Assembly: GCF_024213195.1 (NCBI RefSeq)
Contig: NZ_JANAVF010000001.1
Location: 806,001 to 870,000, forward strand
Direction of reading: 5' to 3'
DNA: 64,000 bases
Origin: Streptomyces sp. TBY4
GTDB lineage: Bacteria > Actinomycetota > Actinomycetes > Streptomycetales > Streptomycetaceae
Numbering within the stretch: position 1 is the stretch's first letter; each line of letters starts with the position of its first letter. This document shows positions 13,923 through 23,626 of the stretch, in pieces. The notes under the pieces were generated by a model. The model saw only the letters and a list, made by a program, of their open reading frames with translations. It ran no database searches and was not told where the DNA came from. Made by a program: the position numbers and the translations under genes.

Positions 13923-14025
13923 CCGGGACGATCAACCCCGTCACCGCTCTGGGCAGTTGTGCGGAGGGCCGCGATGATGGGCCGTCGGTGCGGTCCGGAC
14001 GCGGGTGACGGGGGCGGGGGCGGTC

Positions 14026-14859
14026 ATGGAATCGGTCGTGGTGGGAGGCGTACGCATCGCCTACGAGCGGGCGGGCGCGGGCCGGCCGGTCGTGCTGGCC
14101 GGGGGCACCGGCATGCCGCCGGTGGCATGGGAGTTCTCCGGGCTGCGGGGCGCGCTGGTGGCTGCGGGCTTCGAGGTGGTGACGTACGCGGCGCGCGGGG
14201 TCGCCCCCTCGGACGCGCCCCCGGCCCCGTACACGATGGCCCAGCTCACCGGCGACCTCGCCGGCCTCATGGACCACCTGGCGCTCCGGGACGCGGCGGT
14301 GGTCGGCTACTCGCTCGGCAGTTTCACCGCGGAGCTCCTCGCCCGGACCCGCCCGGACCTGGTCGGGGCGCTGGTCCTGATGGCGGGGGCCGGTCCCCTG
14401 ACCGGTGTCGTGGACGCGGTCCTGGACGCCGAGGCCGAGCTGATCGGCCTCTTCGGGCATCTGCCCCCGGCGTTCGCGGCGTTGCAGACGCTGCTGACCA
14501 CGCTGCCGCCGGCGGTGCTCCGCGACGACGCCGAGCAGGTGGCGGCCTGGCGGGAGCTGCTGGGCGGGCAGGAATCGGTGTGGGCTGCGCCCGCGGGCGA
14601 GGCCGGGCAGTCGGCGGCGTCCAGCGGCTGGCTGCGCGATCCGAGTCGCATGGCCGCCCTCGCCGAGGTACGGGCACCCGCACTGGCGGTGGCGTTCGAG
14701 CACGACCTGTACTTCCCCCCGCACACCGGGCGCGCCGCGGCCGCGGTGCTGCCGCGCGGGGAGTTCGCCCAGGTGGACGGGGCCGCCCACGGCGGGCTGC
14801 TGACGCACCCGGGCGAGACCGCCGAGGTCCTGCTGCGCTTCCTCACCGCGGAGCGCTGA
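14026..14859 (+). CDS. Alpha/beta hydrolase
   Basis: A 277-residue single-domain alpha/beta hydrolase. The nucleophile elbow is VVGYSLGSFTAE (Ser near residue 94), the probable acid is in VAFEHDLYF, and the His is in DGAAHGGLL near the C-terminus. LAGGTGMPP supplies an oxyanion-hole-like segment. I chose the ATG at 14026 because the fold begins there (VVVGGVRIAYERAG). An in-frame start at 14005 would add 7 residues, and neither start has a good ribosome site. No signal peptide. The substrate is unknown. It stands alone between the decarboxylase and the broken metal-transport locus. Confidence 0.8.
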   Translation: MESVVVGGVRIAYERAGAGRPVVLAGGTGMPPVAWEFSGLRGALVAAGFEVVTYAARGVAPSDAPPAPYTMAQLTGDLAGLMDHLALRDAAVVGYSLGSFTAELLARTRPDLVGALVLMAGAGPLTGVVDAVLDAEAELIGLFGHLPPAFAALQTLLTTLPPAVLRDDAEQVAAWRELLGGQESVWAAPAGEAGQSAASSGWLRDPSRMAALAEVRAPALAVAFEHDLYFPPHTGRAAAAVLPRGEFAQVDGAAHGGLLTHPGETAEVLLRFLTAER

Positions 14860-14874
14860 CCCCGGGCGGGGTGG

Positions 14875-15231
14875 TCAGGAACAGCAGGTGCAGCCCGGCG
14901 CGCAGCCGCAGGCGTCCGCGTCCTGGGCGGCCGGGGCGGGGCTGTGGGCGCCGGGTGCGCAGCAGCCCTTGCCCTGCCAGGCGTCGCGGCCTTCCTTGAC
15001 GGCGATCGCGGCGATGACGAGGGCGGCGACGGGGTCGGCCCAGGACCAGCCGAGGGTGGCGTTGAGGGCGAGGCCCACCAGGAGGACGGCGGACAGGTAG
15101 GTGCACAGCAGGGTCTGCTGGGAGTCCGCGACCGCGCTCGCGGAGCCGAGTTCACGGCCCGCCCTGCGCTGGGCGGCGGAGAGGAACGGCATGACGGCCA
15201 GGGAGAGGGCGGCGATGACGATGCCGGGACC
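14875..15231 (-). pseudogene. C-terminal fragment of a CDF metal-ion exporter
   Basis: Minus-strand frame with the C-terminal half of a cation-diffusion-facilitator protein: IVIAALSLAVMPFLSAAQRR, then SASAVADSQQTLLCTYL, LALNATLGWSWADP and a Cys-rich tail ending in CTCCS. The N-terminal membrane helices are missing. A piece of the missing part sits immediately upstream but in the opposite orientation (15232-15352). No start codon with a ribosome site precedes this fragment. It therefore looks like a rearrangement-broken gene and not a short functional protein. Confidence 0.8.
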
Positions 15232-15352
15232 CGAGCCACCTCCGCCGCCGCGGTCGCCTGGCAGTTCTCCGCCCGCGACCACGCCCTGCGCGAGGCCCGG
15301 GAGAAGACCACGCTGCGGATCGTCGCAGGCTCCTTCTTCGCCCTCGCCGCCT
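15232..15352 (+). pseudogene. Inverted internal fragment of the same CDF exporter
   Basis: On the + strand the frame reads AAAVAWQFSARDHALREA followed by KTTLRIVAGSFFALAA, which matches the middle of Streptomyces CDF exporters (the segment that normally precedes the part found at 14875-15231). Here it is encoded on the opposite strand. Homology stops at about 15352, where the + strand sequence becomes the complement of an ArsR fragment. This places an inversion of about 120 bp between two CDF pieces. Confidence 0.7.
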
Positions 15353-15434
15353 GGTTCGACATCCGGGTCCGCGAGACCCCCAGGGCCTCGGCGAGGTCGG
15401 CCGGGTAGGCGGGCGCCTGCGACGCCGCACTCAC
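15353..15434 (-). pseudogene. Fragment of an ArsR-family regulator (HTH segment)
   Basis: The minus strand encodes APAYPADLAEALGVS followed by RTRMSN, the recognition-helix region of ArsR/CmtR-like metal regulators. It is cut off at about 15353 and lacks everything downstream. A GTG overlaps the stop of the response-regulator gene at 15431-15434, but the encoded piece is only about 27 residues and starts in mid-domain. arsR genes of this type normally precede CDF exporter genes, which explains its position beside the CDF fragments. Confidence 0.65.
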
Positions 15435-16117
15435 GCGTCGAAGCGGTACCCCATGCCGGGGGCGGTGATCAGGTGGCGCGGGTGCGAGGGGTCCGCCTCC
15501 AGCTTGCGCCGCAGGTGCGCCATGTACACGCGCAGGTAGTTGGTCTGCGTGCCGTACGAGGAGCCCCAGACCTCCTGGAGCAGCCGCCGCTGGCTGACGA
15601 GCCGGCCCCGGTTCCTGATCAGGACCTCCAGGAGGTGCCATTCCGTCGGCGTGAGCCGGATGGTCACCCCCGCGCGCCTGGCCTTCTTCGCGACCAGGTC
15701 GACGGTGAACCCCTCGGTCTCGACGACCGCCTCGCCGCCGGCGTCCGGGCCCTGCGCCGACGTCCGCCGGGTGACGGATCCCAGCCGGGCCAGCAGCTCG
15801 TCCATGCTGAACGGTTTGGTGATGTAGTCGTCGGCCCCGGCGTCCAGGGCCCGGACCTTCTCCTCGGAGCCGTGGCGGGCGGAGACCACCAGGACGGGCA
15901 CCTGGGACCACACGCGCAGCCGCTCGATCACCTCGATGCCGTCCATGTCGGGCAGTCCGAGATCGAGCAGCACCACGTCCGGGCGCCGGGCCGCCACCGC
16001 GTCCAGGGCCGCGCCACCGCCCTCCGCGCAGTCCACTTCGTACTTCCGGGCCCTCAGATTGATGGCCATCAGCCGCGCGAGCCGCGGCTCGTCGTCCACC
16101 ACCAGTACCCGGGTCAT
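15431..16117 (-). CDS. KdpE-type response regulator, second copy without its own kinase
   Basis: A 228-residue OmpR-family regulator. The receiver domain (1-120) has the acidic pocket VVDDEP, phospho-acceptor Asp in VVLLDLGLPD (near residue 52), and the Lys of DDYITKPFSM. The winged-helix DNA-binding domain (130-228) has RLTPTEWHLLEVL and LRVYMAHLRRKLEADP, closely like the KdpE encoded at 22943-23626. No kinase gene adjoins it. The only hint is a GAF-like remnant at 17659-17943. A perfect inverted repeat lies 25 bases upstream of the ATG. It may respond to KdpD or another kinase, or act unphosphorylated. The start has GGAAGG about 10 bases upstream. Confidence 0.88.
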   Translation of the reverse strand: MTRVLVVDDEPRLARLMAINLRARKYEVDCAEGGGAALDAVAARRPDVVLLDLGLPDMDGIEVIERLRVWSQVPVLVVSARHGSEEKVRALDAGADDYITKPFSMDELLARLGSVTRRTSAQGPDAGGEAVVETEGFTVDLVAKKARRAGVTIRLTPTEWHLLEVLIRNRGRLVSQRRLLQEVWGSSYGTQTNYLRVYMAHLRRKLEADPSHPRHLITAPGMGYRFDA

Positions 16118-17084: not shown

Positions 17085-17420
17085 TCAGTGGCTGCGGGGC
17101 GCGTACATGATCACGGCCATCCCCGCGAGGCAGACCAGGGCGCCGATCACGTCGTAGCGGTCGGGGCGGTAGCCGTCGGCGACCATGCCCCAGGCGATCG
17201 AACCGGCCACGAAGATCCCGCCGTACGCGGCGAGGATGCGCCCGAAGTCGTCGTCCGACTGGAAGGTGGCCACCACGCCGTAGAGGCCGAGGGCGATGAC
17301 GCCGGCGCCGATCCAGATCCAGCCCTTGTGCTCGCGGATGCCCTGCCAGACCAGCCAGGCGCCACCGATCTCGAACAGGGCGGCGACGGCGAACAGCGCG
17401 ACGGAACGAGCGACGGTCAT
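17085..17420 (-). CDS. YnfA/UPF0060-type four-helix membrane protein
   Basis: A 111-residue integral membrane protein with four predicted helices starting at about residues 5, 33, 62 and 89. The motifs [31 protein letters not shown] and [13 protein letters not shown] are typical of the UPF0060 family, which belongs to the drug/metabolite transporter superfamily. The ATG at 17420 was chosen because it begins the first helix. The length equals the family norm. The transported substrate, if any, is unknown. Confidence 0.9.
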
Positions 17421-22942: not shown

Positions 22943-23626
22943 ATGACCAAGGTGCTGGTGGTGGAGGACGACGCCCAGCTCGTACGTGCGCTCAGGATCA
23001 ACCTCGAGGCGCGGAAGTTCGAGGTGGAGACGGCTTCCGACGGAAACACCGCCCTGAGGCTCACGGTCGTCCGCAAGCCGGACGTCATCCTGCTGGACCT
23101 CGGTCTGCCGGACATGGACGGCATCGACGTGATCAAGGACGTACGGGAGGGCAGCGGCGTGCCGATCCTCGTCCTCTCGGCCCGGCACACGTCCGAGGAG
23201 AAGATCCGCGCCCTGGACGCGGGCGCCGACGACTACGTCACCAAGCCGTTCAGCATGGACGAGCTCCTCGCCCGGCTGCGGGCCGCCGTGCGCCGCCGGG
23301 AGGTCCCGGCCCCCACCCACGAGATCTCGGTGGTCACGACGGAGGACTTCAGCGTCGACCTCGTCGCGAAGAAGGTCGTGCGGGGCGGCCGCGGCGTGCG
23401 TCTGACGCCCACCGAGTGGCACCTCCTGGAGATCCTGATCACCCACCCCGGCCGGCTGATCAGCCAGCGCAAGCTCCTGCTGGACGTCTGGGGACCGACG
23501 TACTCCGAGCACACCAACTACCTGCGGGTCTACATGGCCCAGCTGCGCCGCAAGCTGGAAGCGGACCCCTCGCACCCGAGGTACCTGATCACCGAGCCCG
23601 GCATGGGCTACCGCTTCGAGGGATGA
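22943..23626 (+). CDS. kdpE: KdpE response regulator
   Basis: A 227-residue OmpR-family regulator: receiver domain with VVEDDA, phospho-acceptor Asp in VILLDLGLPD (near residue 52) and DDYVTKPFSM, then a winged-helix domain with RLTPTEWHLLEIL and NYLRVYMAQLRRKLEAD. GAAAGAGGAAGG upstream of the ATG supplies the ribosome site. kdpD follows after 8 bases. It should activate kdpFABC when phosphorylated by KdpD. The order regulator-kinase is reversed relative to E. coli kdpDE, as is common in actinobacteria. Confidence 0.95.
   Translation: MTKVLVVEDDAQLVRALRINLEARKFEVETASDGNTALRLTVVRKPDVILLDLGLPDMDGIDVIKDVREGSGVPILVLSARHTSEEKIRALDAGADDYVTKPFSMDELLARLRAAVRRREVPAPTHEISVVTTEDFSVDLVAKKVVRGGRGVRLTPTEWHLLEILITHPGRLISQRKLLLDVWGPTYSEHTNYLRVYMAQLRRKLEADPSHPRYLITEPGMGYRFEG

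Follow-up and report, generated by a model that had tools for sequence, protein, structure and literature searches.

The window, a 64,000-nucleotide stretch of Streptomyces sp. TBY4, very likely carries a real, rearranged and null arsR-CDF metal-efflux locus, in which the middle of the CDF gene is inverted between the 3′ part of the same gene and a scrap of arsR. Judged by alignment with relatives, this scrambling of the pieces is far beyond chance. The source genome is a draft of 8.47 Mb in 61 contigs, and the window covers C15:806001-870000, on a contig of 940 kb. The initial annotation, which had read a broken locus of this kind from the letters, had itself proposed comparison with intact loci as the test, and alignment put the pieces where it had placed them. 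They lie between an alpha/beta hydrolase gene and a gene for a KdpE-type response regulator:

14005 to 14859, plus strand: alpha/beta hydrolase, frame unbroken (284-aa open frame; Pfam Abhydrolase_1, E = 2.5e-16)
14875 to 15236, minus strand: 3′ part of a CDF-type cation efflux gene, in frame to its own stop (71-91% DNA identity over 231-394 bp to matched loci)
15236 to 15237: junction 1, between the CDF 3′ part and the inverted CDF middle, with about 52 bp of CDF missing (junction alignments; CGAG near-homology)
15237 to 15351, plus strand: CDF middle, inverted, 115 bases (82-93% identity)
15351 to 15352: junction 2, between the inverted CDF middle and arsR, with about 340-390 bp (arsR 3′ and CDF 5′ parts) missing (junction alignments; 1-2 bp shared)
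15352 to 15418, minus strand: scrap of an ArsR/SmtB-type regulator gene, about 22 codons of the helix-turn-helix region (75-92% DNA identity to arsR genes)
15417 to 15423: junction 3, between the arsR scrap and the 3′ flank of the kdpE-like gene, with the 5′ third of arsR missing (arsR 5′ alignments; kdpE-like flanks of genomes G281 and G293)
15431 to 16117, minus strand: KdpE-type response regulator, intact (228-aa open frame; Pfam Response_reg and Trans_reg_C)

The pattern emerged from a DNA search of 61 genomes and BLAST of the retrieved loci. In relatives, positions 14873-15236 and 15352-15418 of the window match one strand, and 15239-15352, lying between them, matches the opposite one. 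One collinear arsR-CDF locus, L010, is 90.0% identical over 281 bp at 14956-15236, 89.3% identical over 112 bp at 15239-15350 on the opposite strand, and 87.7% identical over 65 bp at 15352-15416. In all ten loci from L009 to L018, the three pieces are parts of a single collinear arsR-CDF locus. We then compared 36 loci from 36 other genomes of the genus, leaving aside loci of the TBY4 genome itself, two duplicates (L053 and L063), two truncated loci (L061 and L025), and six from outside the genus (L019-L024). In all 36, the two CDF pieces follow one another on a single strand, and 35 also have the arsR piece in its proper position; the exception is L065, where the arsR piece was not found and the arsR match lacks residues 1-64. 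None of the 36 has the inverted piece. Both genes are full-length and free of stops in 32 of them. L042 does not pass this test, solely on account of a second arsR nearby, and the damaged loci are L017 (stop in arsR), L056 (CDF spread over two frames), and L065 (no arsR 5′ part). Outside the genus, the two CDF pieces of the window match on opposite strands in L019, L022, and L024, and only the 3′ piece matches in the other three.

The inverted segment had been put at about 120 bp on the plus strand; it measures 115 bp, has CDF similarity, and runs opposite to the CDF 3′ part by comparison with all 36 loci. Its two boundaries, first placed near 15232 and 15352, hold up and can be refined to 15236|15237 and 15351|15352. 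We add a third junction at about 15417-15423, beyond which arsR genes stop matching; the bases beside kdpE there are most like the 3′ flanks of kdpE-like genes in G293. The bases equivalent to 15228 and 15352 are 59 bp apart in 35 loci and 65 bp apart in one, which puts the loss at the true junctions at about 52 bp. Beyond the other edge of the inverted piece, relatives except L065 have 343-390 bp between the pieces, and the window thus lacks about 340-390 bp there. The proposal of a deletion plus an inversion thus stands as to the inversion, and the single deletion gives way to two losses beside the inverted piece and a third at the arsR 5′ end. Relative to relatives, the window therefore has a segment opposite in orientation to its neighbors, with loss on its flanks.

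The junctions, which are those of one draft assembly of one strain, share 1-6 bp overall, a homology that appears at best slightly above chance. At junction 1, relatives have CGAG or a similar motif on both sides and in the right orientation, and the shared run, allowing a slip of one base, is 2-6 bp (mean 3.66; at least 4 bp in 11 of 35 relatives), compared with a mean of 2.18 at random position pairs (at least 4 bp in 12% and at least 3 bp in 31%); the excess is slight at best because the relatives are not independent. Some imperfect GC-rich repeats, 10-18 nt long, begin or end close to junction 1 or 2 (pairs I5, I6, I7, I13, and I14); many others do so at other places. At junction 3, 15412-15424 is the reverse complement of 15321-15333 in the inverted piece at 12 of 13 bases (pair I8), which is perhaps chance or a trace of template switching.

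Protein-level searches agree with this partition. The open frame carrying the CDF 3′ part takes its GTG start (15282) from within the inverted piece, and Pfam PF01545 (Cation_efflux) matches its product (14878-15282, minus strand) above the cut-off (E = 7.8e-9, profile positions 104-187 of 198), as it does the CDF proteins of L010 and L097; matches to the NCBIfam CDF superfamily model, at 43.3 and 35.8 bits, are below its cut-off of 82.35. A search of the TBY4 genome with the L010 CDF protein matched residues 117-214 at E = 1.8e-49 on the minus strand; the plus-strand match covers residues 60-110 at E = 1.3e-14 and slightly overruns the junction. There is thus no whole CDF gene in one frame: its middle is on the plus strand, residues from about 117 onward are on the minus strand, and about the first 60 residues are gone. 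Nor do the roughly 22 codons left of arsR make a complete winged helix-turn-helix regulator. This scrap, too short for any Pfam hit, aligns with residues 30-64 of the L010 ArsR protein (60%, E = 3.2e-7) in a match that extends into the kdpE flank. The L010 ArsR itself matches HTH_5 and, above the cut-off, the metalloregulator subfamily model; its CmtR score of 139.4 bits is below the cut-off of 150.

We searched 392 genomes of the genus with window 15150-15440, and 152 match at E = 1e-12 or better; among the matches listed, a continuous one-piece match over all 291 bases occurs in the TBY4 genome only (E = 1.1e-149; next, 1.1e-43). Two listed matches overrun junction 2, one in G313 (L041) and one in G262 (L068). 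A shared scramble was considered for each and rejected, given that the CDF end and the arsR piece are at their normal places and strands in the former and both genes are full-length on one strand in the latter; the overruns look like chance because both come from collinear loci. Scanning a species collection, in which the TBY4 genome is possibly not included, for exact matches at specified bases of junction 2 returned nothing. Within the TBY4 genome, the L010 CDF query (E = 1e-5) gave no further copy of this CDF beyond the two fragments here, and none of the remaining ArsR-like matches exceeds 40% identity to the L010 ArsR; the pair therefore appears to be lost from the genome unless a distant relative substitutes for it. 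Three other Cation_efflux genes were found there by a family search and were not retrieved with the L010 CDF query.

The break is probably recent. We counted changes private to the window at columns at least 90% conserved among relatives, with nine control rows for each piece (every fourth row of the set); the rows numbered 34 of 36 for the CDF end (those above 80% identity), 36 for the inverted piece, and 35 for the arsR piece. The CDF end has no window-only change in 189 columns (272 bases; controls 0-4), the inverted piece has one in 83 columns (113 bases; controls 0-3), and the arsR piece has one in 41 columns (65 bases; 0 in all nine controls). Such counts suggest little or no decay or relaxed evolution in the pieces, which a recent event fits; against recency there is only a hint, from the one private change in the arsR piece. 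The lack of decay, measured on 272 + 113 + 65 bases, could alternatively reflect constraint.

What is left would yield neither protein. After the arsR scrap, the frame from the GTG overlapping the kdpE stop enters wrong-strand and out-of-frame sequence, so that an ArsR product should be impossible, and a CDF product should be equally so because the CDF end comes without the first half of the protein. The remaining CDF frame might still be in use as a small membrane protein: it is open over 135 aa, and 272 bases of it show no private change at conserved columns. We regard such use as highly improbable, since the start codon is in the inverted piece, the first 15 or so residues would come from the wrong CDF strand, the first half of the protein is gone, and recency accounts equally for the open frame.

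The best NCBIfam model for the regulator beside the remnant is KdpE (233 bits, below the cut-off of 325), and at least three KdpE-type response regulators are present in the TBY4 genome: this one, one in the kdp operon (22943-23626), and one on another contig (G000:C10:215722-216416). G293 has several as well, and the kdp operon near the remnant aligns to G293 as a single 6.5-kb block at 86%. The hydrolase is rare, with matches in six of the 392 genus genomes at E = 1e-75, TBY4 included, a count that misses a frameshifted copy in G351; the gene also appears frameshifted in G375. A hydrolase relative is linked to arsR-CDF in four genomes (TBY4 included; loci L098, L099, and L100) in three arrangements: it is divergent beside arsR-CDF in G281 and G351, it is 3′ of CDF on the same strand in G375, and it faces the CDF end in the window. 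In G293, arsR-CDF is on the plus strand between a kdpE-like gene and a decarboxylase-like gene (named by eye) that is the same as the window's. Because the G293 pair is in opposite orientation between the same kinds of neighbors, the history may include more than one inversion.

Other apparent remnants of the CDF gene occur. L025 (G030:C43) and L061 (G032:C242) are truncated and out of frame; they resemble the window in having the same CDF subfamily in fragments and differ from it in lacking an inverted piece. L061 adjoins an open frame that resembles a transposase by eye. In G293, an apparent scrap of a CDF 3′ end (L096, 12190-12361; 79% over 176 bp) lies near another kdpE-like gene, also with no inverted piece. 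The initial annotation had called the window's route an unusual path of decay; the absence of the inversion from the 36 loci and from L025 and L061 agrees with this, and the agreement extends as far as these loci. The inverted piece might also have been a mobile mini-element, an idea that was dropped when the two occurrences of the piece without a CDF 3′ part, L025 and L061, turned out to be truncated CDF genes.

The varied hydrolase and arsR-CDF arrangements, the orientation in G293, and the L096 scrap together indicate a neighborhood prone to rearrangement. The region of the window also looks like a mosaic of two clusters, since its YnfA/UPF0060 gene (17088-17420) has 98% protein identity to that at L098 9641-9973, beside arsR-CDF and the hydrolase in G281. 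One might go further and take the stretch from the decarboxylase-like gene to the kdp operon as a hot spot of very local flips, because the hydrolase, the arsR-CDF pair, and the CDF middle differ in orientation across the few genomes holding them. We consider this a long shot; if true, it could mean that template switching recurs there and affects pieces the size of a gene as well as smaller ones.

The most economical reading of the locus is a local event in which two stretches were dropped and the intervening piece was turned around. In relatives, the order is the arsR helix-turn-helix region, the rest of arsR with the CDF start, the CDF middle, about 52 bp, and the CDF end; in the window, it is the arsR scrap, the inverted CDF middle, and the CDF end, with both intervening stretches lost and the arsR 5′ end absent beside the kdpE flank. 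Junctions 1 and 2 would have been made in one local break-and-rejoin. A fragment released by two breaks could have turned over before end joining, or replication could have switched template and copied about 115 bases from the other strand; loss of the arsR 5′ end may belong to the same event or be separate. Ku-type end joining and replication template switching are both capable of such a rearrangement. The TBY4 genome has two Ku loci above the Pfam cut-off, one of them partial. The 1-6 bp of junction homology fits either process, and the evidence favors neither of them over the other, nor one step over two; we put the odds of one event rather than two steps at about even.

A two-step variant, which overlaps the local-event reading, is possible though on the unlikely side: the CDF middle and the adjoining 52 bp would have inverted between small inverted repeats (of the ATCGAG/CTCGAT type), and one deletion would then have removed those 52 bp, by now inverted, along with the arsR 3′ and CDF 5′ parts. 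It has the merit that a single deletion covers both losses, and the shared run at junction 1, with its higher mean than in random pairs, is as long as 6 bp at the expected site, with a slip of one base allowed, in 6 of 35 relatives. Runs of at least 4 bp are, however, common enough in random pairs, the relatives are not independent, and a genome with the inversion only is absent among the 36 loci; no intermediate state of any kind was found among the compared genomes. The middle piece might instead be the unturned part, the arsR-CDF pair having flipped from a G293-like ancestor (arsR and CDF on the plus strand, ending against kdpE) while the middle kept or regained its old orientation. The locus in G293, where the middle is on the plus strand between those same neighbors, suggests as much, but that order is known in one genome only, the kdpE-like gene there has 77.6% protein identity whereas two other G293 kdpE-like genes have 86%, the window has the hydrolase at the site and none was found in L097, and a kdpE-like match occurs in the short flanks of 0 of the 36 loci; we find this doubtful. 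Less probable again is an assembly or library artefact, a local chimera. The structure is known from a single draft assembly, and short inverted joins with small homologies are a known type of library chimera; the GC-rich repeats near the junctions are like those at many other places. Against this, the assembly has no other copy of the CDF gene, the contig is long, and the adjacent kdp operon aligns to G293 in one piece.

The rearranged locus is very probably real, and would add one more case to a known class of mutation, with ordinary gene loss having taken a less usual path. Its value is that of a clean, apparently young gene inactivation through a compound local rearrangement, and not through a frameshift or plain deletion, with relatives near enough to resolve the junctions almost to the base. 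It changes nothing in the understanding of metal efflux and adds one data point on how breaks are rejoined in high-GC actinobacterial genomes.

The gene order fits that of pairs of an ArsR/SmtB metalloregulator (CmtR-like) and a CDF gene in Streptomyces sp. Je 1-79 (L108) and Streptomyces sp. AP-93 (L103), to which the window pieces have about 71-93% DNA identity. Unlike in those pairs, both genes of the window are incomplete, the two internal stretches and the arsR 5′ end being gone, and the CDF middle is inverted. The results of a literature search listed no such structure in Streptomyces. Small deletion-inversion-deletion rearrangements, attributed to end joining or template switching, are alike in having a short inverted segment between two losses with little homology at the junctions; in the present case, the mechanism is a proposed one.
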